From IMG/VR virus record IMGVR_UViG_3300007735_000663, positions 1-35,553 of that record: a stretch of DNA of 35,553 nt, one strand, 5' to 3'. Origin of the DNA: a virus. The position numbers and the translations under genes were made by a program. Under the pieces are notes generated by a model that did not search any database, was not told the origin of the DNA, and was given only the letters and a program-made list of their open reading frames with translations. Positions 11,956 through 29,064 of this stretch are shown piece by piece (the stretch's first letter is position 1; the number at the start of each line of letters is the position of its first letter).

Positions 11956-12082
11956 TTTTCTTCTCCAGTTGATCCAACGATTTCTTTAGCCGCTCCATCA
12001 GGCGCAGGGCTTGGTTGTACTGCTTGACGGCGATGCGAAACTGCGCCTTCGTCGAGCGGATACGGTCTTGTAGTGTGTTCAT
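11912..12082 (-). CDS. small basic coiled-coil protein
   Basis: This encodes 56 residues, beginning MNTLQDRIRSTKAQF and ending in a Lys/Ala-rich tail. The start ATG at 12082 overlaps the helicase stop as ATGA, and GGAGAG lies 6 nt upstream within the helicase gene. It is helical and strongly basic (KSLDQLEKKNELARAKQK), so nucleic-acid contact is possible. Its close coupling to the helicase makes it a candidate partner. I know of no homologue. Confidence 0.62.
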   Translation of the reverse strand: MNTLQDRIRSTKAQFRIAVKQYNQALRLMERLKKSLDQLEKKNELARAKQKAKHAK

Positions 12083-13365
12083 TTCAGACTCTCCATTGCA
12101 ATGTCACTGATCGCCCGCTTGTCGTGCAGCGCGGCCCATATTTTCTCGTCAACCGTCTGGTTGGCGAGCATCACGTAGCACCAGACGTCGTGGCGCTGCC
12201 CGGATCGGTGCAGGCGCCCGTTGGCCTGCTCGAACAGTTCGAGGGACCAAGGCAGACTGAGCCAGACGATGTGGTGGCCGCCGTGCTGGAGGTTGAGTCC
12301 GTGTCCGGCTGACTTGGGGTGCAGGCATAGAAGGCGTACTCGTCCGGCGTTCCAGTCATCAATGCTGTCAACTGTTCGCGCGTGAGGGAAACGTCGTTGT
12401 AGTTCATGCAGTTCCTCTATGAAGTTGTAAAAGACGATAGTGTTGGCCTGCTGGTTCTCGGCCAGCAGTTCCTCCAGCCGGTCAAACTTGTGCCCGCTGA
12501 ACCAGACTGGCTCTGGCGCGTAGACAAAGCCTGCGGCCATCTGCGACAGCTTTTGCGTCACCACGGCGGCGTTGACGGCCACGGCGGTTGCGTCGGGAAA
12601 GCGCGTCACAAAGTCTTTTTTCATGTCCTCATAGGGCTTGCGGTCGGGCAAGTCCATCCGCACCTCGACCGTGTGCAGCGGCGGCAGCTTGTCCTTGTAC
12701 TCGCCCGGCTCCAGCACGAAGGTGGCCGGCTTGATCCGCTCCATGACCAACTCCAGCGAGCCTGGGCGCGGCTGCCAGTCGTTGAACTCGCGGTTGACAA
12801 GGTAGAAGTACTGCTGCTGGAACGCGCCCTTGCTGCGGCCGAGCAGGCGCTGGTCGATGATCTTGCACTGCCCGAAGACGTCCTCCAAGCCGTTGCTGGT
12901 GAACGAGCCGGTCAAACCCCAGCGGATGGGGAACTGGTCGATGACTTTGTTTAGCGCCTTAAACCGAGCGCCTGACGGGTTCTTCAGGCGTGTCAATTCG
13001 TCGAACACGATGCCGTCGAACGTGGTCAGGTTCTGCTCGGCCAGCCACTGGAGGTTGTCGTAGTTGGTCACCACGATCTCCGACCAGTAGTCCATCGCCG
13101 TCTTGCGCTGCTGGGGCGTGCCAACGGCCACGCGCAGCTTTAGCTCAGGCGCCCATTTGGGCTGCTCCTGCGGCCAGACGCTGGTGGCGACCCGCAGCGG
13201 GGCGACGACGAGGAACCGCCTGACGTGCCCGTCGCGGATCATGTCGCGCATGGCCGCGAGCGTGATCGCCGTCTTGCCGGCACCGACCGGCGCCAAAATC
13301 ATGGCGCGGTCGTGCTCGAACAGGAAGTCAGCCGCCTGCTCTTGATAGGGTCTTAATGAACTCAT
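12079..13365 (-). CDS. SNF2-type DEAD-like helicase
   Basis: This encodes 428 residues from ATG 13365. The frame is open to 13599, but that extension reads antisense-like over the nuclease gene. Visible motifs are RPYQEQAADFL (Q-like motif), Walker A GAGKT at residues 28-32, APLRVATSVWP (Ia), TNYDNL (Ib-like), DELT at 122-125 (Walker B), LTGSF (III), and a C-terminal domain with GHGLNLQHG and GRLHRSGQ (V and VI). This is a compact phage SNF2-like superfamily 2 translocase. The gene overlaps a VRR-NUC nuclease by 38 nt upstream, a common phage pairing suggesting joint work on branched or recombining DNA. Confidence 0.88.
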   Translation of the reverse strand: MSSLRPYQEQAADFLFEHDRAMILAPVGAGKTAITLAAMRDMIRDGHVRRFLVVAPLRVATSVWPQEQPKWAPELKLRVAVGTPQQRKTAMDYWSEIVVTNYDNLQWLAEQNLTTFDGIVFDELTRLKNPSGARFKALNKVIDQFPIRWGLTGSFTSNGLEDVFGQCKIIDQRLLGRSKGAFQQQYFYLVNREFNDWQPRPGSLELVMERIKPATFVLEPGEYKDKLPPLHTVEVRMDLPDRKPYEDMKKDFVTRFPDATAVAVNAAVVTQKLSQMAAGFVYAPEPVWFSGHKFDRLEELLAENQQANTIVFYNFIEELHELQRRFPHARTVDSIDDWNAGRVRLLCLHPKSAGHGLNLQHGGHHIVWLSLPWSLELFEQANGRLHRSGQRHDVWCYVMLANQTVDEKIWAALHDKRAISDIAMESLK

Positions 13366-13615
13366 CGACGTGCTCTTTTGACCACAGACAGGCGTAGTTT
13401 TGACGCAACAGTGCCATGTCGGACTGGAAGATTTTCTGTAACTCAGACAGCCGGCCACCGGGCGCTTTGAGTTCCACGAACCATGTGCTGCCGTCGGGCA
13501 GGCACACCACGCGGTCGGCCACGCCTCGGTGCGCGGGGCTGGTGAACTTGTACGCCATGCCGCCGACAGCCTTGACCTGGGCGACAAAGTACTTCTCAAT
13601 GGTGGACTCTTTCAA
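13328..13615 (-). CDS. VRR-NUC domain nuclease
   Basis: This encodes 95 residues. The frame allows GTG at 13621, but TTG at 13615 has GGAGG at 13626-13622 with a 6-nt spacer and forms a TTGA overlap with the previous stop, so TTG is preferred. Motifs are HRGVADRVV (catalytic Asp in G-V-x-D), then WFVELKAPGG with Glu-x-Lys, and a C-terminal Gln-rich helix (ELQKIFQ). This is the PD-(D/E)xK fold of stand-alone VRR-NUC proteins, which cleave branched DNA in characterised members. It is encoded next to an SNF2-type helicase. Confidence 0.88.
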   Translation of the reverse strand: MKESTIEKYFVAQVKAVGGMAYKFTSPAHRGVADRVVCLPDGSTWFVELKAPGGRLSELQKIFQSDMALLRQNYACLWSKEHVDEFIKTLSRAGG

Positions 13616-17963: not shown

Positions 17964-20261
17964 ATGGATTTTCTGGAGTATATGACAAGTCTGGCACCAG
18001 AGGGAGAGACCTTCCTGGTTGTCAGACAAAAACCACAGTTAGCTAACGGCGAGGTGCAACTGCACCCCGACGGGGGCGTCAAGGCCACCTGGCCGGCGTT
18101 CCTGCCGACTAAGAACATGCCCGCCGGCCAGTCATGGTACGGCAATACCGCCTCGTTCATCCTCGACCGCTTCGCTGATGGCCGCGTCAGCGCCAGCGCC
18201 GCCAACTGCGAGTACGTGCTGTGTATGGTGCTGGACGATGTGGGCAGCAAGAGCAAGACCCCGCCCTTGGCCCCGACTTGGATCATGGAGACCAGCCCCG
18301 GCAACTATCAGTGGGGCTATGCGTTTACCGAGGAGCAACCGACCAAGGGCGAGTTCAGCGCGGCCATCGTGGCAATCGCTGAGGCCGGTTACACCGACGC
18401 CGGCGCGATCAACCCGGTGCGTAACTTCCGCCTGCCTGGGTCGGTCAACATCAAGCCGGGACGGGACGGGTTCGTCTCGCGTCTGGTCGAATTCACACCA
18501 GCTCGGCAATACACACTAGGTGCTATCTGCGAGGCGCTCGGCGTCACTCCCCGCGAGGAGAGCGGCGCCTTTCGCCCGATCCGCATCAGTGACGATGGCG
18601 CCGATGACGTGCTGGCGTGGCTCTCCGGGCAGGGTCTGGTGCTGCGTAAGCCCAACGCCGAGGGCTGGGCCGGCGTTGTCTGCCCCAACAGCGCCGCCCA
18701 CACCGACGGCAATCCAGAGGGGCGCTACAACCCCGCCATGAGGGCGTTTTGCTGCTACCACGGCCATTGCACCGAGTTGGACTCGGGCGCGTTCTTGCAG
18801 TGGGTGGGCGACAACGGCGGTCCCTCCCACGCGCCCGGCCTGCGCGATGAGTTGCTGGCCGACATGATGGCCGACGCCTTGGGCAAACTGCACCCGACCA
18901 AGGCGTTCCCCGACGAGGCCGCGCGGGTGATCGCCGAGGTCGAGCGCAAGGAACTTGGCCGCACCGAGCGCGCCGAGTGGTACAAGCGCTTTTGCTACGT
19001 CCAAGAGGGCGACCATTATTTTGACCTGCAAGACCGCCGCGAGATCAGCCGCTCGACCTTCAACGCCCTTTTCAGGCACATCGAGTGCCGCTCGCTGTTT
19101 GGCAAGCGCCCCAAGATCGAGGCGTCCTACTGCTTCGATGAGAACCGTCAGGACATGGGCGCCCGGACCCTGGTCGGCATCACCTACGCCGCCGGCGAGG
19201 GCGTGCTGGTCGCTCGAGACGGTGACGTCTACGGCAACCGCTGGCGAGACGCCCGGCCGGCGGTGACCGGGGCCGGCGGCGACATTACGCCCTGGCTGGC
19301 CCACTGCGAGACGCTTATCCCCGAGGCGTCCGAGCGCGAGCATATCTTCGACGTCATGGCCTATAAGCTCCAGCACCCCGAGGTCAAGATCAACCACGCC
19401 GTCCTCCACGGCGGCGATCAGGGCTGCGGCAAAGATACGATGTGGGCGCCGTTCATTTGGGCGGTCTGTGGGCCGCAGCTCAAGAATCGGGGCCTCCTCG
19501 ACAACGATACCCTTGGCTCGCAGTGGGGCTATGCCCTAGAGTCGGAAATCCTGATTCTGAACGAACTGAAAGAACCTGAGGCCAAGGACCGCCGCGCCCT
19601 TGCCAATAAGTTAAAACCCATCATCGCCGCGCCGCCTGAGATGCTCACCGTCAACCGCAAGGGCTTGCACCCGTATGACATGATGAACCGCATGTTCGTG
19701 CTGGCATTCAGCAATGACCCGGTGCCGATCTCGCTCGACTCTCAGGACCGCCGCTGGTTTGCCCTGTGGTCCTCAGCCCCTCGCATGGCCCCAGACGCCG
19801 CCCGGCGGCTTTGGAACTGGTACAAGAGCGGCGGGTATGAGGCGATCGCCGGCTGGCTGCACGCGCGTGACGTTTCCGCATTCAACCCTGCCGCAGCGCC
19901 GGCCTGGACCGAATTTAAGGCTAATTTGGTCGAACATGGCATGAGCATGGCCGAGTCTTACCTGGTCGAAATGATGCGCGGGCGGCGCGGGGAGTTTGCG
20001 CGCGGTGTAGTGGGTTCACCCTTCCACGGCCTGTGTGACCGTGTAGCGGCCAGCGCACCCTCTGGCGTGAAAGTGCCTCAAGCAGCGCTGTTGCATGCGC
20101 TTAAAGAGGCCGGTTGGATTGATTGTGGGCGCCTGAAGTCGCGCGCGCATGATGCGAAAAAGCACATCTTCTGCGCGCCTGACATGTTGCACCATAGCAA
20201 GTCGGACCTGCGCGACATGGTCGAGGATATGCCGGCATCGGTTCTGATGCGGGTCAAGTAA
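17964..20261 (+). CDS. primase/SF3-type helicase, DUF5906-like
   Basis: This encodes 765 residues, with AAGGAG at about 17950-17955. The N-terminal third has strand patterns and a LCMVLDDVGSKSK motif like those of the primase-polymerase part of D5-type replicases, then a Cys/His cluster (CCYHGHC, about residues 263-269). The C-terminal half is a superfamily 3 helicase core with Walker A GGDQGCGKDT at residues 483-492, Walker B ending in ILILNEL, and a sensor LAFSNDPVPISLDSQDRRWF. A winged-helix-like tail follows. It would prime and unwind DNA for the polymerase encoded upstream. It is the last gene of this operon. Confidence 0.88.
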   Translation: MDFLEYMTSLAPEGETFLVVRQKPQLANGEVQLHPDGGVKATWPAFLPTKNMPAGQSWYGNTASFILDRFADGRVSASAANCEYVLCMVLDDVGSKSKTPPLAPTWIMETSPGNYQWGYAFTEEQPTKGEFSAAIVAIAEAGYTDAGAINPVRNFRLPGSVNIKPGRDGFVSRLVEFTPARQYTLGAICEALGVTPREESGAFRPIRISDDGADDVLAWLSGQGLVLRKPNAEGWAGVVCPNSAAHTDGNPEGRYNPAMRAFCCYHGHCTELDSGAFLQWVGDNGGPSHAPGLRDELLADMMADALGKLHPTKAFPDEAARVIAEVERKELGRTERAEWYKRFCYVQEGDHYFDLQDRREISRSTFNALFRHIECRSLFGKRPKIEASYCFDENRQDMGARTLVGITYAAGEGVLVARDGDVYGNRWRDARPAVTGAGGDITPWLAHCETLIPEASEREHIFDVMAYKLQHPEVKINHAVLHGGDQGCGKDTMWAPFIWAVCGPQLKNRGLLDNDTLGSQWGYALESEILILNELKEPEAKDRRALANKLKPIIAAPPEMLTVNRKGLHPYDMMNRMFVLAFSNDPVPISLDSQDRRWFALWSSAPRMAPDAARRLWNWYKSGGYEAIAGWLHARDVSAFNPAAAPAWTEFKANLVEHGMSMAESYLVEMMRGRRGEFARGVVGSPFHGLCDRVAASAPSGVKVPQAALLHALKEAGWIDCGRLKSRAHDAKKHIFCAPDMLHHSKSDLRDMVEDMPASVLMRVK

Positions 20262-20286
20262 CCCCAACTAAACTTAGGTAAAGAAA

Positions 20287-20309
20287 AGGCCCGGCGCAAT
20301 GCCGGGCCT
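20287..20309 (-). terminator. terminator of the minus accessory operon
   Basis: AGGCCCGGC-GCAAT-GCCGGGCCT is a perfect 9-bp stem with a 5-nt loop. On the minus strand it is followed by TTTTCTT, giving a good intrinsic terminator for the genes reading leftward. On the plus strand it lacks T residues but may still block the convergent transcript. Confidence 0.78.
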
Positions 20310-20322
20310 GAAGGGCAACTGC

Positions 20323-20385
20323 TCAGAGATCGAAAAAGACCGCCAGCAGCGCGGCAATGATACCGCAGATTAGGATTGTTCCCAT
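20323..20385 (-). CDS. 20-residue membrane peptide
   Basis: ATG 20385 opens a frame for a peptide of about 20 residues, MGTILICGIIAALLAVFFDL, nearly all of it hydrophobic. A weak GGCGG lies upstream, and the start overlaps the end of the preceding gene by 16 nt. The terminator follows 14 nt after the stop. Its size and single helix suggest a membrane micropeptide. It could also be a chance frame, so confidence is limited. Confidence 0.42.
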   Translation of the reverse strand: MGTILICGIIAALLAVFFDL

Positions 20386-20585
20386 ACCGCCGCCTTTTCA
20401 ATGTCTTGAATCAGACCCTCGGACAGTAGCGGCAAAATGTCAACCCCTCCGACTTTGGCGCTTATGAGATAGGCTTCTGCCGGGTCTGAAGGGTCCGTCA
20501 GCGTAGCGCGCCGGCCGGCGTCATATTCCAGTTCGCAATCTAACTCGATCGTGCCGTGCCTGTATAGGTGCGTTATTGTTCGCAT
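20370..20585 (-). CDS. conserved small phage protein
   Basis: This encodes 71 residues, with GGAGGA 3-4 nt before ATG 20585, a strong signal. The sequence opens with basic and beta residues (MRTITHLYRHGTIELDCELEY) and contains SAKVGGVDILPLLSEGLIQDIEKAA, a pattern I recognise from a small phage protein family with no assigned function. It overlaps the 3' end of the upstream gene by 13 nt. It is probably soluble and acidic. Confidence 0.75.
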   Translation of the reverse strand: MRTITHLYRHGTIELDCELEYDAGRRATLTDPSDPAEAYLISAKVGGVDILPLLSEGLIQDIEKAAVWEQS

Positions 20586-20899
20586 AGTTCCTCCACTTCA
20601 GGAATTGACGGGTCTAACATAGGCGCCGGCCGATCGGCGTGGGTGTAGTCGGTCGGCAATAGGTGCACATGCGCGTTTAAAACCGCGTACTGGCGCAAAT
20701 ATTCGGCGGTATCCATGCCCGACTCGAAAACGGGATAGTAACGGCGCATGCTCTCATGTTTAGGATTGCTGCGGATTTTGGGAAACTTGCGCCCTTTGCG
20801 CCCATTGGACTTGTCAATCAGCGCCAACAGTTCGCGCGTGGTTTCGGCGTTTTCGGGCTGGACGGTCAGAGTCGCGCGATTGTGGGATATGGTGATCAT
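20573..20899 (-). CDS. small accessory protein, unknown
   Basis: This encodes 108 residues from ATG 20899, with GGAG 9 nt upstream. The longer frame to 21076 only reads through the neighbouring gene and is rejected. The product opens with MITISHNRATLTVQPENAET, has a basic loop (SNGRKGRKFPKIR) and a Tyr-rich centre (RRYYPVFESGMDTAEYL). No family is recognised. The basic loop could contact nucleic acid. Confidence 0.65.
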   Translation of the reverse strand: MITISHNRATLTVQPENAETTRELLALIDKSNGRKGRKFPKIRSNPKHESMRRYYPVFESGMDTAEYLRQYAVLNAHVHLLPTDYTHADRPAPMLDPSIPEVEELCEQ

Positions 20900-20903
20900 A
20901 GGG

Positions 20904-21131
20904 TTAGTCTCCGAAAACAATGCCATTGGAAAATACACGAGTGAGGTTTGCGACTGGCACCGTGCGAATGGTGCCGCCGTCCTCATGGGGTAGCCAAGTG
21001 CCGTGCCAGTCAACGCGGGCGAGCTTGCCGCCCAATTCGAGCGCGACAATGGTGCCGCGCGCGTTTGCGCCGTCATGCTGAGTGCGGCGCAGTGTGGCTT
21101 GATTAAATGCGACTGTATCGTTGACTCTCAT
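20904..21131 (-). CDS. small SH3-like accessory protein
   Basis: This encodes 75 residues from ATG 21131, with GGAG 9 nt upstream; the start overlaps the upstream stop as ATGA. The pattern is of short beta strands with VNDTVAFNQATLRR, GTIVALELGGKLARVDWHGTWLP and TVPVANLTRV. This resembles a KOW/SH3-like barrel seen in many small phage proteins. The function is unknown. The longer frame to 21311 is a shadow of neighbours. Confidence 0.68.
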   Translation of the reverse strand: MRVNDTVAFNQATLRRTQHDGANARGTIVALELGGKLARVDWHGTWLPHEDGGTIRTVPVANLTRVFSNGIVFGD

Positions 21132-21256
21132 GGTGTCATGCTCCAGAAGTAAACGAAAAAGGGACCGAAAAACAGCGCTGCGACCACTAGGGCAATGATT
21201 AGGTCGAATGCCGCGCTGGCGCGTCGGACGGGTTTGGGCTGATAGTGTTCTCTCAT
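21128..21256 (-). CDS. 42-residue single-pass membrane protein
   Basis: The basic N-terminus MREHYQPKPVRRAS is followed by one hydrophobic helix (AAFDLIIALVVAALFFGPFF) and a short tail. Positive-inside topology predicts a cytoplasmic N-terminus. It is joined by ATGA overlaps to genes on both sides, which supports expression. No homologue is recognised. Small membrane proteins like this often affect host physiology or superinfection, but there is no direct evidence here. Confidence 0.6.
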   Translation of the reverse strand: MREHYQPKPVRRASAAFDLIIALVVAALFFGPFFVYFWSMTP

Positions 21257-21396
21257 ACCGCAAGCCCTGAAACACGAAAGCACCGACCGTCTGACAGGCG
21301 CTCGACGTCAACGGTGCCGGCGCGCCGAATGGCCAGGATGCGGCAGCGCTCAGGCCGGCCGAATAGGTGCATGGTAAGGGTTTGATTCACTTGCAT
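21253..21396 (-). CDS. 47-residue accessory protein
   Basis: GAGGA lies 5 nt upstream of ATG 21396, a strong ribosome binding site. The product begins MQVNQTLTMHLFGRPERC and ends VERLSDGRCFRVSGLAV. It is probably a small beta-rich protein with two Cys residues. It overlaps the membrane-protein start as ATGA, so the two are co-translated. It resembles small phage proteins with a DGRxFRVSG ending. The function is unknown. Confidence 0.62.
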   Translation of the reverse strand: MQVNQTLTMHLFGRPERCRILAIRRAGTVDVERLSDGRCFRVSGLAV

Positions 21397-21462
21397 AGTG
21401 TCCTCTACTGTTACCGGACGGATTGTCCGCAGCAGGGGCCAGCAAGCCCCTGCTACTGAAAA

Positions 21463-21789
21463 TCAAGCGTTACAACACCCGCAGCATGGTGCATCCTCGC
21501 ACCGGCCGCGCCGGTTGCGGTAGTATTCCCGGCCACCGGCGCGCCATATGTCAGAAACCCCACGGGCCATAGATCGGGCCATATACCGGCCGGCCGCTAT
21601 GGCCGCATCCGGGTCCGTAGCGGCCAGTTCCGGGTCCATATCGGCCACGGCCGCTAGTGTCGGGTCCACGGTATCGGCGCCGGCCAGTTCGGCGCGCCCC
21701 TTACCGTGCCATATGATCAGATCACCCGGTCGGATGACGGCGCCGGTACGGATGCACCGACCGGGATATTTTGCGGTAATGGTTTTCAT
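21463..21789 (-). CDS. Cys-containing small protein, zinc-ribbon-like N-terminus
   Basis: This encodes 108 residues. The N-terminus MKTITAKYPGRCIRTGAVIRPGDLIIWHGKG follows a widespread pattern of a small beta domain with a Cys near residue 12, seen in phage and PARP-associated zinc-finger-like proteins; the second expected Cys is replaced here. The middle contains an imperfect repeat around DPTLAA and DPELAATDPDAA. The C-terminus has five Cys residues in CEDAPCCGCC. It starts in an ATGA overlap with the Cys-rich enzyme-like gene, suggesting related work. The DNA is dense in GGCCG motifs. Confidence 0.7.
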   Translation of the reverse strand: MKTITAKYPGRCIRTGAVIRPGDLIIWHGKGRAELAGADTVDPTLAAVADMDPELAATDPDAAIAAGRYMARSMARGVSDIWRAGGREYYRNRRGRCEDAPCCGCCNA

Positions 21790-22445
21790 GCTGATACCCT
21801 TATATCAATAACGCGTTTTTTCGTGCCGTGCGCGGGAAACCCGACGATCGTTGACCGTTGACGTTGGCACAGTTGGCAAGTGGCGCATGAGACGTCATCG
21901 CGTTGCGTGGCCGGGCAGACCACCACTTTGCGGCCGGCCGGCGTGGTGGTGTTTTCGGTTTGCGTTGACGGCAAAACCACCACCACCGGACCGGCGCCGG
22001 TATCGGCCAGTGTATCGGCATCGGTTAGATCATTGGCAGATAGGTTGACGGTAAAGCCCCATGCGTTTGCGTGCTTAACCCATGCAAGGGATTGTGTGTC
22101 CCGGTGGTGCGTGTAGGTGAATCCACGCCGGCCGATATTGGCGTGCACCAATTGCCCTAGTTTGACGGCATCGATTGTGCCGCCGGTTTGCGGCAAGTCA
22201 CCCGCTTGATTGTGGCGCCACAATTGACCCTCAGGCAGTGCCGCAATGGCTTGCGTGAACTGGCCCCAGGACGTGCCGCGCGTGCCGGCAGACACTGCCG
22301 CCCAGTGCAGGGCTAAGGGACCGGATGCAGCATAGCACCCGGCGCGCATCGCGCAATCGGCCGGGCAGGATTCTTTGGCAGTGGTGGATACAGGGATAGG
22401 CCCTGTTTTGACGTTAGCCGATTTAAGGGTGAGATGTACTTGCAT
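21786..22445 (-). CDS. Cys-rich conserved phage protein (DUF7227-like)
   Basis: This encodes 219 residues, with AAAGG 7 nt upstream of ATG 22445. An N-terminal Cys cluster has the form C-x3-C-x5-C-Y-A, followed by a Ser-Gly-Pro-Leu stretch. Further conserved parts are QLWRHNQAGDLP, GRRGFTYTHHRD and VNLSANDL, with a C-terminal cluster VCPATQRDDVSCATCQLC. The order of strands and the CYA motif recall Gp37/Gp68 (DUF5131) proteins, thought to be radical-SAM-like. Whether this family binds SAM or an iron-sulphur cluster is not shown. I believe it is conserved in other podoviruses with unknown function. Confidence 0.75.
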   Translation of the reverse strand: MQVHLTLKSANVKTGPIPVSTTAKESCPADCAMRAGCYAASGPLALHWAAVSAGTRGTSWGQFTQAIAALPEGQLWRHNQAGDLPQTGGTIDAVKLGQLVHANIGRRGFTYTHHRDTQSLAWVKHANAWGFTVNLSANDLTDADTLADTGAGPVVVVLPSTQTENTTTPAGRKVVVCPATQRDDVSCATCQLCQRQRSTIVGFPAHGTKKRVIDIRVSA

Positions 22446-22506
22446 GGTTTGCCTTTACTTAATTAGATTGAACAATGCGCGGCAGCTGGCCGCGCGGGTT
22501 TGAAGG

Positions 22507-22692
22507 TTAGACAATAAAGTCGGGGTGTTGAGTCAGCTTGAATGCTTGCGCCTGCTCCATCAGCGCGGCGCGGCTGCGGTTAGTTCGCGCAGCGCGTATC
22601 AAGGCGGACAGACTGCGCGCGGCAGTGTCAACCATGCCAGCGGCAAGATACAGACAGACTGATTTCAGTTCACGGGTTTCGGCTTTGGTCAT
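22507..22692 (-). CDS. first gene of second minus operon, small helical protein
   Basis: This encodes 61 residues, with GGAG 8 nt upstream of ATG 22692. It is Ala/Arg-rich and helical (TKAETRELKSVCLYLAAGM, then SLSALIRAARTNRSRAALMEQA). No motif is recognised, but similar short proteins head phage accessory operons. It lies about 45 nt downstream of a sigma70-like promoter. The 61-nt gap to the next gene holds a second ribosome binding site and no obvious regulatory element. Confidence 0.66.
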   Translation of the reverse strand: MTKAETRELKSVCLYLAAGMVDTAARSLSALIRAARTNRSRAALMEQAQAFKLTQHPDFIV

Positions 22693-22736
22693 GATGCGTG
22701 CTCCAGGTGTTGCATGGCGACTGTGCCATGCGCGCT

Positions 22737-22765
22737 AGTGTAAAGGAATTCCTTGCACAATGCAA
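22737..22765 (-). promoter_or_regulatory. sigma70-like promoter with palindromic spacer
   Basis: On the minus strand TTGCAT (22765-22760) and TACACT (22742-22737) are separated by exactly 17 nt. The spacer contains a perfect 12-bp palindrome AAGGAATTCCTT (22743-22754), and a second inverted repeat TTGCA-CAA-TGCAA (22753-22765) covers the -35. Both could be operators. Confidence 0.6.
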
Positions 22766-22883
22766 TAGCCAAGTAAAATAGTGGGGAATGGACAGTGTGT
22801 GGACTGTGCGTGGACTATGGAAACGTGGGGGGATTGTCCACGCTCGCACAGAGGGGAGAATATGGTCTGTGGACAATGTGGAC

Positions 22884-22921
22884 AATGAGTATGTAAGTCT
22901 AGAAATAGATTAAAAATATAC
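22884..22921. other. AT-rich core between iteron clusters
   Basis: This stretch of about 38 bp is strongly A/T-rich compared with the GC-rich genome and sits between the two oppositely oriented repeat clusters. It runs directly into the LexA-like box. In replication origins such a tract would be the unwinding element. That function is inferred. Confidence 0.45.
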
Positions 22922-22938
22922 TGTATGGGTATACAGTA
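22919..22938. promoter_or_regulatory. LexA (SOS) box
   Basis: TACTGTATGGGTATACAGTA is a 20-bp palindrome with perfect 8-bp arms around GGGT. It contains CTGT-N8-ACAG, the gammaproteobacterial and betaproteobacterial LexA consensus, and matches the ideal E. coli SOS box at all positions except three in the centre. It lies between the two divergent operons, next to the iterons. Host LexA binding is therefore likely. No phage-encoded LexA-like repressor is visible. Confidence 0.75.
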
Positions 22939-23202
22939 GTCTTCGCGCCAGCGTCAAGCGCAGCGCGCCCCAAAGGGGGTCGACCGACTTAAAATCGCAG
23001 TCCACATTGTCCACATTGTCCACAAATCCACGCCACGCCACGCAAGCCACGCAAGCCATGCGACTGTCAACCGATGGTCCACATTGTCCACATGGTCCAC
23101 ACGCCGCGCGGCCAGGCGGCAAAAAGGGAATCGGCTTTTTCGCCGAGGGGGTGGGGGAGGGCCCTGGGCCGAGAGGTCACGGCAGCGGAGGGATCACCAA
23201 AA

Positions 23203-23238: not shown

Positions 23239-23682
23239 ATGTTCGAGACCCTGCCATACGAGCCACGCCAACTGCGCGCAACCGAAGATCGGCTGGCACG
23301 CATCTACCGCGCTGCCAAGCTAGGACTCAAGGGCGACAATCTTGCCTTGGCCGCAGGCATGTTGCCCAAGGAATACGCCAGACTCAAGCAGTTCGACGAG
23401 ATCGCCGAATATGCTGAACTCAAAGGCCGCGCCGAGGGCGAGATGGAGATGAGCCATTTGCTGCACGATGCTGCGGCGCAAGGCGACGCCAAAGCGGCCT
23501 TAGCCATCTTGCAAAACGTCCACGGCTGGGTCGCCAAGCAGGCCATCAGTGTGGACGTAAACCAGTCGATCAGCATCACCGCCGCGCTGCAAGAGGCCGA
23601 GCGGCGCGTCGTTGAAGTGATCGAGAACAACCCAAGCCAAATGCTACAGCATGCAAACCACACGTTACAGCGCGCAGGATGA
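23239..23682 (+). CDS. terminase small subunit
   Basis: This encodes 147 residues from ATG 23239. The frame is open to 23074 through the repeat region, but the product is family-like only from here. There is no ribosome binding site, and the promoter places the transcript start at or next to the ATG, so the message may be leaderless. The N-terminal half has a helix-turn-helix-like pattern (LARIYRAAKLGLKGDNLALAAGM), followed by long helices (KAALAILQNVHGW) and a C-terminal helix. The protein would recognise packaging DNA and bring it to the large subunit, whose start overlaps this gene by 32 nt. Confidence 0.83.
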   Translation: MFETLPYEPRQLRATEDRLARIYRAAKLGLKGDNLALAAGMLPKEYARLKQFDEIAEYAELKGRAEGEMEMSHLLHDAAAQGDAKAALAILQNVHGWVAKQAISVDVNQSISITAALQEAERRVVEVIENNPSQMLQHANHTLQRAG

Positions 23683-26521: not shown

Positions 26522-28705
26522 ATGCCGCAAGACTATTCAGGCGTTGTTGCCGCTGGCGCGGTCAGCGAGGGCGGCTCGGCCAAAGACAAGAGCGACGCCG
26601 ACGTCCTCTCGACCGCCCGCAGCCGCCTGGATATGGCGATCTCCGCGTTGTCGGAATCGCGCGAAGATGAGTTGGACGACTTGCGGTTCTACGCTGGCTC
26701 GCCCGACAACCACTGGCAGTGGCCGGCCGATGTGCTGGCGACCCGTGGCGCAGTGCAGGGCCAGACGATTAACGCTAGGCCATGCCTGACGATTAACAAG
26801 CTGCCGCAGCACGTTCACCAGGTCACCAACGAGCAGCGCCTAAACCGCCCGCAGCCCAAGGTCATCCCGGTCGATGACAAAGCTGACGTCGAGGTGGCCG
26901 AGATATTCAACGGTGTCATCCGGCACATCGAGTACATCTCCGACGCCGACGTAGCCTACGACACCGCCTGTGAGAACCAAGTCGCCTATGGCGAGGGCTA
27001 CGTCCGTATCCTGACCGAGTACTGCGACGCAGACACGTTCAATCAGGACATCAAGATCGGGCGCATCAGGAACAGCTTTTCGGTCTACATGGACCCGCTC
27101 ATCCAAGACCCGTGCGGCTCGGACGCCCGCTGGTGCTTTATCACTGAAGACATCCCGCGTGACGAATACGAGCGCCAGTTCCCCAACGCATCGCCTCTGA
27201 GCACCTTGCAGACGCTGGGCGTCGGTGACCAAGGCTTTAGCCAGTGGATGAACGAGAACACGGTGCGAATTGCCGAGTACTTTTACATCGACAACACCAA
27301 AGAAACGCTTAACCTGTACCCCGGCAACCTGACTGCGTTTCAAGGATCGCCCGAAGACAAGATGCTGCGGTTGCAGTTTGGCAAGCCCCTGCGCTCGCGT
27401 CAGTCTGACCGCAAGAAAGTCAAGTGGCTCAAGATCAACGGCTACGAGGTGCTAGAGCGCTCCGACTGGGCTGGCTCGCACATCCCGGTGATCCGCTGCG
27501 TGGGCAACGAGTTCGAGGTTGAGGGCCGTCTGTACGTCAGCGGCCTAGTGCGTAACGCCAAAGACGCGCAGCGCATGTACAACTACTGGACGAGCCAAGA
27601 AGCTGAGATGCTGGCGCTGGCCCCCAAGGCGCCGTTCATAGGCTACGGCGGGCAGTTCGAGGGTTACGAGATGCAGTGGAAGACTGCAAACACCCAGAAC
27701 TGGCCGTATCTGGAGGTCAACCCTGACGTCACAGACGGCGCAGGATCGGCTTTGCCGCTGCCGCAGCGTGCAGCCCCACCGCTGCCCCAAACCGGCCTCA
27801 TACAGGCCAAAATGGGCGCTGCCGACGACATCAAGAGCGTCACCGGGCAGTACAACGCATCGCTCGGCCAAACGTCCAACGAGCGCAGCGGCAAAGCCAT
27901 CTTGGCCCGCCAGCGCGAGTCCGACACCGGCACCTATCACTACGTTGACAACTATGCTCGCATGATCCGCTATGTCGGGCGGCAGTTGGTCGATCTGATT
28001 CCGAAGATTTACGACACTGAGCGCATCGCCCGCATCATTCAAGAGGACGGCGAGTCGGGCATGGTCAAGATCAACCCGATGCAGCAAGAGCCGGTCAAGA
28101 AGATCAGGAACGAGCAGGGCATCGTAGTTGACAAAATTTACAACCCCGGCGTCGGCAAGTACGATGTGCGCGTCATCACCGGGCCAGGTTTTCAAACCAA
28201 GCGTCAGGAGTCGCTCGAAGCAATGGCTCAGTTGCTGCAAGGCAACCCGCAGCTTTGGACCGTGGCTGGCGACTTGTTCATCAAGAACATGGACTGGCCG
28301 GGCGCGCAGGAGATGGCAAAACGTTTTGCCAAGGTCATCGATCCGGCCATCATCGGGGACGACGAGGACAACCCAGCATTGGCGGCGGCCAAGCAGCAAA
28401 TCGAGGCAATGAACCAAGAGATGCAGCAGATGTCTGGGATGCTCCAGAACGTGCAGCAGTCGTTTGAAGCCCGTGATGTGCAAATCAAGGAGTTCAAGGC
28501 CGAGATTGAAGCCTACAATGCTGAAACCAAGCGGATTGCGGCAGTGCAGGCTGGCATGACCGAGCAGCAAATTCAAGACATCGCTATGGGCGTGGTGGCT
28601 GCGGCAATGGAAAGCAATGAGTTAGTATCGCCAAGCGAGGCCCGCGAGATGCCTGAGATGCAGCCCGAGCAGCCGCCGATGCCGATGGAAGGACAAATGC
28701 AATGA
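26522..28705 (+). CDS. portal protein, P22 gp1-like
   Basis: This encodes 727 residues, close to P22 gp1 (725). It has the family's early DDLRFYAGSPDNHWQWP motif, then TINKLPQHVHQVTNEQRLNRPQPKV at about residues 90-115 and NGVIRHIEYISDADVAYDTAC downstream. These are the signatures of the P22-type portal. The C-terminal part (about 600-690) is a Gln/Met-rich coiled coil, corresponding to the P22 barrel, and ends in a Pro/Met/Gln-rich tail. Twelve copies would form the ring through which terminase pumps DNA and to which the gp4-like factor binds. The stop overlaps the next gene as ATGA. Confidence 0.93.
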   Translation: MPQDYSGVVAAGAVSEGGSAKDKSDADVLSTARSRLDMAISALSESREDELDDLRFYAGSPDNHWQWPADVLATRGAVQGQTINARPCLTINKLPQHVHQVTNEQRLNRPQPKVIPVDDKADVEVAEIFNGVIRHIEYISDADVAYDTACENQVAYGEGYVRILTEYCDADTFNQDIKIGRIRNSFSVYMDPLIQDPCGSDARWCFITEDIPRDEYERQFPNASPLSTLQTLGVGDQGFSQWMNENTVRIAEYFYIDNTKETLNLYPGNLTAFQGSPEDKMLRLQFGKPLRSRQSDRKKVKWLKINGYEVLERSDWAGSHIPVIRCVGNEFEVEGRLYVSGLVRNAKDAQRMYNYWTSQEAEMLALAPKAPFIGYGGQFEGYEMQWKTANTQNWPYLEVNPDVTDGAGSALPLPQRAAPPLPQTGLIQAKMGAADDIKSVTGQYNASLGQTSNERSGKAILARQRESDTGTYHYVDNYARMIRYVGRQLVDLIPKIYDTERIARIIQEDGESGMVKINPMQQEPVKKIRNEQGIVVDKIYNPGVGKYDVRVITGPGFQTKRQESLEAMAQLLQGNPQLWTVAGDLFIKNMDWPGAQEMAKRFAKVIDPAIIGDDEDNPALAAAKQQIEAMNQEMQQMSGMLQNVQQSFEARDVQIKEFKAEIEAYNAETKRIAAVQAGMTEQQIQDIAMGVVAAAMESNELVSPSEAREMPEMQPEQPPMPMEGQMQ

Positions 28706-29064
28706 AATGCTGTGATTTCGTAGGCACACTGTTTCTGGCCCGAGATGTCACCCACTCGGTCCACCTAAACACGCGCAGCTTTTCCAAACACATGGCGCTC
28801 AACGAGTTCTACGACAACATTGTTGAACTGGCCGACAAGTTCGCCGAAGCCTACCAAGGCAGGCATGGTTTGATTGGACCCATCAGCCTGATGAGCGCCA
28901 AGAAGACCGGCAACGTGATCGAGTTTCTTGAGGACTCTTTGGGTGACATTGAGAAGATGCGATATGAGGTGGTGGACAAGTCCGACACCCCGTTGCAAAA
29001 TATAATCGACGAGATTGTGGGGCAGTACCTCAGTACACTCTACAAACTGAAATTCTTGGCATAA
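28702..29064 (+). CDS. conserved helical phage protein (DUF5856-like)
   Basis: This encodes 120 residues, ATGA-coupled to portal. The early part has DVTHSVHLNTRSFSKHMALNEFYDNIVELADKFAEAY, the arrangement of a four-helix ferritin- or Dps-like bundle with His/Glu residues. The C-terminus is a helical stretch ending in Leu-Lys-Phe-Leu-Ala. I associate it with DUF5856, common in podoviruses and of unknown function. It could act on host nucleoid or metal storage, but no such activity is shown. Confidence 0.75.
   Translation: MKCCDFVGTLFLARDVTHSVHLNTRSFSKHMALNEFYDNIVELADKFAEAYQGRHGLIGPISLMSAKKTGNVIEFLEDSLGDIEKMRYEVVDKSDTPLQNIIDEIVGQYLSTLYKLKFLA

Follow-up and report, generated by a model that had tools for sequence, protein, structure and literature searches.

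The window, our term for the whole 35,553-nucleotide stretch analysed here, is a complete IMG/VR virus record (IMGVR_UViG_3300007735_000663). It carries a podophage gene set that includes a P22-like portal, TerL, PolA, an exonuclease and a primase-helicase. Having a terminase, a P22-like portal and tail genes of its own, this freshwater phage is autonomous and not a satellite. The primase-helicase gene (17964–20261, plus strand) encodes a RepB_primase N terminus, a DUF5906 helicase and a predicted C-terminal winged helix, and its codons 725–734 (KSRAHDAKKH; 20136–20165, plus strand) form the predicted wing loop with the candidate specificity residues Lys725, Arg727 and Asp730. A SNF2/DEAD-like helicase gene lies on the opposite strand inside the replication region (12079–13599, minus strand). 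Small leftward accessory genes, a DUF7227 gene among them, fill the interval from 20262 to 22797 and show strong turnover among relatives. Beyond them, where the leftward genes give way to the rightward late genes, sits a repeat array that is followed by a putative small terminase gene (terS; 23239–23682, plus strand). This gene is named for its position before TerL, and its product matched no protein family. Immediately before terS, the segment 23141–23225 consists of a G-rich stretch, then GCAGCGGAGGG and a T/A-rich run, features that look similar in relatives whose arrays differ.

Within 307 bp (22797–23103), the hexamer GTCCAC occurs 11 times, against 0.23 expected from its rate in the remainder of the window (Poisson P ~2e-15), in agreement with the roughly eleven copies reported by a sequence-only reading of the locus. 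Minus-strand copies lie at 22799, 22810, 22869 and 22878, and plus-strand copies at 22836, 23000, 23009, 23018, 23077, 23086 and 23095. We also recovered the five exact copies of TTGTCCACA described in either orientation (22868 and 22877, minus; 23007, 23016 and 23084, plus), and adjacent copies are often spaced 9 bp apart, as expected from the partial 9-bp tandem already noted; the unit class is ATTGTCCAC. Left copies were said to read mostly opposite to right copies, and they do: four of five are on the minus strand, against six of six on the plus strand. The left iteron set (22797–22886, minus strand) presents its four minus-strand copies as GTGGAC and contains a lone plus-strand ATTGTCCAC at 22833–22841. 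On the right, both sets are on the plus strand and hold three tandem units each: set 1 (23000–23024) has 9-bp units with GTCCAC at 23000, 23009 and 23018, and set 2 (23074–23101) reads ATGGTCCAC, ATTGTCCAC, ATGGTCCAC. The core between the opposed sets (22887–22999) had been called AT-rich with an SOS box. A sequence match to the LexA box, TACTGTATGGGTATACAGTA, is indeed present at 22919–22938, and the AT-richness is found in the left half (~22887–22940), which is a candidate melting region. The array ends ~137 bp from the start of the putative terS, that is, just before it as had been observed, and it is unique: across the window there is no second array of this unit, and the other one-mismatch matches are scattered singles.

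Two further sequence scans gave negative results. GC skew across the window shows no sign change at the array, nor the minimum that the sequence-only reading would have placed there; GC skew is weak origin evidence in a gene-dense phage. Matches in a sigma-70 promoter scan were no commoner than in shuffled sequences. Ahead of the right-arm unit groups, at 22984–22996 and 23060–23074, we noticed a CGACT[TG]AAAA[TC]CG-like motif, also seen by eye in several relatives, which may belong to a larger composite repeat.

To place the array in its family context, we searched viral contigs with TerL and primase, which initially brought in ~160 related loci. Units were called by exact 9-mer counts in a fixed register, because the registers from automatic EM motif finding were unstable. 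Arrays of 9-bp units were found upstream of terS in ~190 relatives, at the same position as in the window. The suggestion that the 9-mers would be conserved at this place was thus right about the place and wrong about the sequence, as the units fall into many classes, including ATTGTCCAC, ATGACCCAA, ATGACCCAC, ATGACTCAC, ATAGCCCAC, ATTGCCTAC and ATTGCCAAT. Opposed units surround a core of 60–170 bp in 154 of 191 array regions, the core is AT-richer than its flanks in 152 of these 154, and of 272 pairs of same-strand neighbours, 142 have a spacing of exactly 9 bp. Of the 191 array regions, 30 have the LexA box pattern CTGTN8ACAG in the core, and these span different unit classes (~0.02 expected per 1.2 kb); judging by these matches, initiation or a promoter close by may respond to the SOS state of the host. 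One relative, a complete podophage with a primase 55% identical to that of the window (L171, MW202483.1, ~28050–28900), has a very different repeat (TGTTTACAT / ATGTAAACA) and the wing CFAPELSTKRH; its array is separated from the terS-like gene by a homing endonuclease.

We compared primase-helicases more than 80% identical to that of the window between phages of the ATTGTCCAC class and those of the ATGACCCAA/T class. Twelve alignment columns fully separate the two, and all fall within residues 725–751 of 765. In 85 scored loci, position 9 of the unit is C wherever residue 727 is Arg (51/51) and never C where it is another residue (34/34), Ser, Ala and Gly being paired with T or A. Lys725 and Asp730 associate more loosely with unit positions 5–7. 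There are 81 distinct wing/unit combinations, and the identical residue–base pairing recurs in distant clades. This natural variation implicates the C-terminal wing loop of the phage primase-helicase in reading the repeats and points to candidate DNA-reading residues of a probable self-loading primase-helicase.

The rules were then fixed in writing before new viral loci were fetched. The new set comprised 135 deduplicated loci, obtained from three more scans with distant primases together with two bacterial-bin loci that had already been inspected when the rules were written; 40 further new loci, without any unit in three exact copies, were left unscored. The Arg727–base 9 rule held in 133 of 135 loci. 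One exception (L280) is a parsing artefact, its array reading TGACCCACA/TGACTCACA. The sole real mismatch (L287) has an Arg727-type wing (KSRAHTTKKH) with a ATGACCCAA array on a 4.6-kb contig, and may be a recent recombinant, a case of relaxed specificity or a chimeric contig. The association of Asp730 with base 5 held in 122 of 135 loci and failed in 13, and is therefore a tendency and not a strict rule. Lys725 went with C at position 7 in 78 of 83 loci, and in the five failures the unit had been taken from the wrong strand (ATTGTGGAC, ATTGTGGGT). Of the unit positions, the register filter fixed 1–2, limited 3–6 and 8 and left 7 and 9 free, so the base-9 rule cannot be a product of the filter.

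AlphaFold models show a winged helix at the C terminus of the primase-helicase with good confidence (pLDDT ~80–93), in which residues 725–732 form the loop of the wing hairpin. In a first run on residues 547–765, the C-terminal domain folded well and the truncated helicase poorly, and structural matches were modest, to generic winged helices. The model of the helicase with the C-terminal domain matched the NrS-1 primase-polymerase (Z 22.3), to which the helicase part is structurally closest, followed by the SaPI5 primase-helicase (Z 16.4, with an aligned identity of ~10%) and PriRep1 with dsDNA (Z 12.4).

Could another protein read the array? The base-9 column test was run on TerS, TerL, portal, PolA, exonuclease, gp25181 and primase, and only primase residue 727 was error-free (0 of 81 loci misassigned); no column in the other six separates base 9. 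Five small leftward genes near the array, in the primase–array interval, were dismissed as binders, being present in only 26–70 of 205 loci. The primase C terminus and TerS, by contrast, are present in 205 of 205 loci and are the universal proteins of the interval that were tested; of the two, only the primase covaries with the unit. This observation also bears on whether the array is an operator, bound by a regulator that controls the leftward early genes or terS, with no role in replication and with the primase-helicase itself possibly as the regulator. The location between the leftward block and the rightward late genes and the LexA box in the core would suit such a function, but the covariation singles out the primase, and opposed sets around an AT-rich core are the layout of an origin (PMC6092414); we regard an operator as unlikely.

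The sequence-only reading had offered a terminase-binding site as its alternative, that is, a pac site at which the small terminase binds the array to start packaging. The array does lie directly upstream of the putative terS, a gene found at all 205 loci. No TerS column tracks the unit class, however: the best misassigns 16 of 75 loci, for which reason TerS was rejected as the unit reader, and the best TerL column makes 14 errors. Moreover, L004 and L005 differ in unit class although TerL is 97% identical to that of the window. These data argue against a packaging site, which we consider very improbable.

A similarly slim chance attaches to hitchhiking, in which recombination carries the 3′ end of the primase-helicase gene and the array along as near neighbours that do not interact. 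In its favour, the gene end and the array are just 2–5 kb apart (in relatives, the end of the primase gene lies 2.3–5.2 kb from TerL, and the gene–array distance is this minus terS) and the region is mosaic; that repeated recombination lies behind the linkage is improbable. On a tree built from the helicase part, leaving out the C terminus, 11 changes are counted for base 9 and 11 for residue 727. The two changed jointly in all five independent pairs on supported branches of the first helicase tree and, in an enlarged set of 187 rows, in 7 of 8 independent supported-branch pairs, with none opposite (p = 0.016). Some phages with identical helicase stretches carry different wings and matching different units (L095/L097 versus L107/L108/L111/L116), and L101 and L113, also with identical helicase stretches, differ in both wing and unit. 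In class-switching pairs, the DNA is ~90% identical until the last ~150 nt of the primase gene, where identity is ~40–80% per 30-nt bin. Further on identity rises again, and stretches of the DNA that separates gene from array remain 87–96% identical in these pairs, which argues against simple co-transfer as one block. TerS and TerL, equally close on the other side of the array, do not covary with it, and the same residue–base match appears in distant clades, centred on one residue of the predicted wing.

Least credible of all is the idea that the units are clustered DnaA boxes where the host protein initiates replication: the unit TTGTCCACA is, as had been pointed out, one base from the DnaA box TTATCCACA, but the DnaA box is a conserved sequence whereas the array unit varies across relatives, with units at the same place that are far from it (ATGACCCAA, ATTGCCAAT, ATGACTCAC), which argues strongly against DnaA, and the window holds zero perfect copies of TTATCCACA.

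We therefore favour, with a probability of about 0.85, the interpretation that 22797–23103 is a replication origin whose 9-bp iterons are read by the C-terminal winged helix of the phage primase-helicase. The candidate origin proposed from sequence alone is thus supported by its conserved place, its layout and its covariation with the primase-helicase, with DnaA set aside as the initiator by the variation of the unit. From this combination we infer that the domain binds the array directly, that hexamers load, that the core melts and that the array acts as an origin. Two helicase hexamers facing opposite ways are probably seated on the two opposed iteron sets, beside the AT-rich core; the core would then melt, the primase domain would prime and the phage family-A polymerase would extend the primers. 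The wing loop would largely set the choice of base, Arg727 specifying C9 and Ser, Ala or Gly specifying T or A, and Lys725 and Asp730 would loosely set unit positions 5–7. It is, on balance, probable that across this freshwater phage lineage the wing stretch of ~45 codons is an interchangeable cassette and that the distant array changes to match, giving many origins that would not cross-react and a readable code in which one residue selects one base (residue 727 for base 9, with further positions). Some points weigh against the origin reading: there is no switch of GC skew at the array, L287 is a mismatch and the proposed origin lies apart from the initiator gene.

The proposed origin would work like the SaPI/PICI Rep-ori and the P4 alpha-ori, but in an autonomous phage and with swappable specificity, and several known systems resemble it in part. 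The solved region of the NrS-1 primase-polymerase ends at its residue 718, and we know of no iteron array or wing code for NrS-1. Satellite phage P4 has an iteron origin. Its alpha protein fuses primase and initiating helicase in one protein (PMC7145576), a fusion shared by the window protein, which nevertheless matches no P4-family primase model: NCBIfam gave no match to the P4-family primase C-terminal model, and the Pfam matches are RepB_primase and DUF5906 only. There is also a likeness to the SaPI/PICI islands, whose Rep is a helicase, sometimes primase-fused, and whose origin has two iteron sets around an AT-rich region (PMC7581432, PMC6092414), as the window array does. In SaPI Rep and SCCmec Cch2, iterons are read by the C-terminal domain (PMC7581432); here, across the sequences compared, the unit class strongly covaries with the predicted C-terminal wing of the proposed initiator. 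The SaPI/PICI elements are satellite islands that need a helper, whereas this phage is autonomous, and their origin lies directly 3′ of rep, whereas here the primase gene ends at 20261 and the array starts at 22797, with accessory genes filling the gap. Because the phage is autonomous, its origin lies kilobases from the gene and beside terS, and identity is ~10%, we do not file the system as a SaPI-type member. For SCCmec Cch2, the C-terminal domain by itself binds the direct repeats of a putative origin in vitro (PMC7581432); that element, which is not a phage, differs in having a separate primase-polymerase and three iterons of 5 nt that lie directly downstream of the gene. In the literature searched, which was short on subscription journals, we found no description of residue–base covariation or wing-cassette swapping in such initiators.

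Together, these comparisons would extend a SaPI/PICI-like origin layout to the autonomous phages of a large family. The variation of wing and unit yields a protein–DNA code that is directly testable, and sequence alone could reveal origins and predict cross-recognition between coinfecting phages or satellites.
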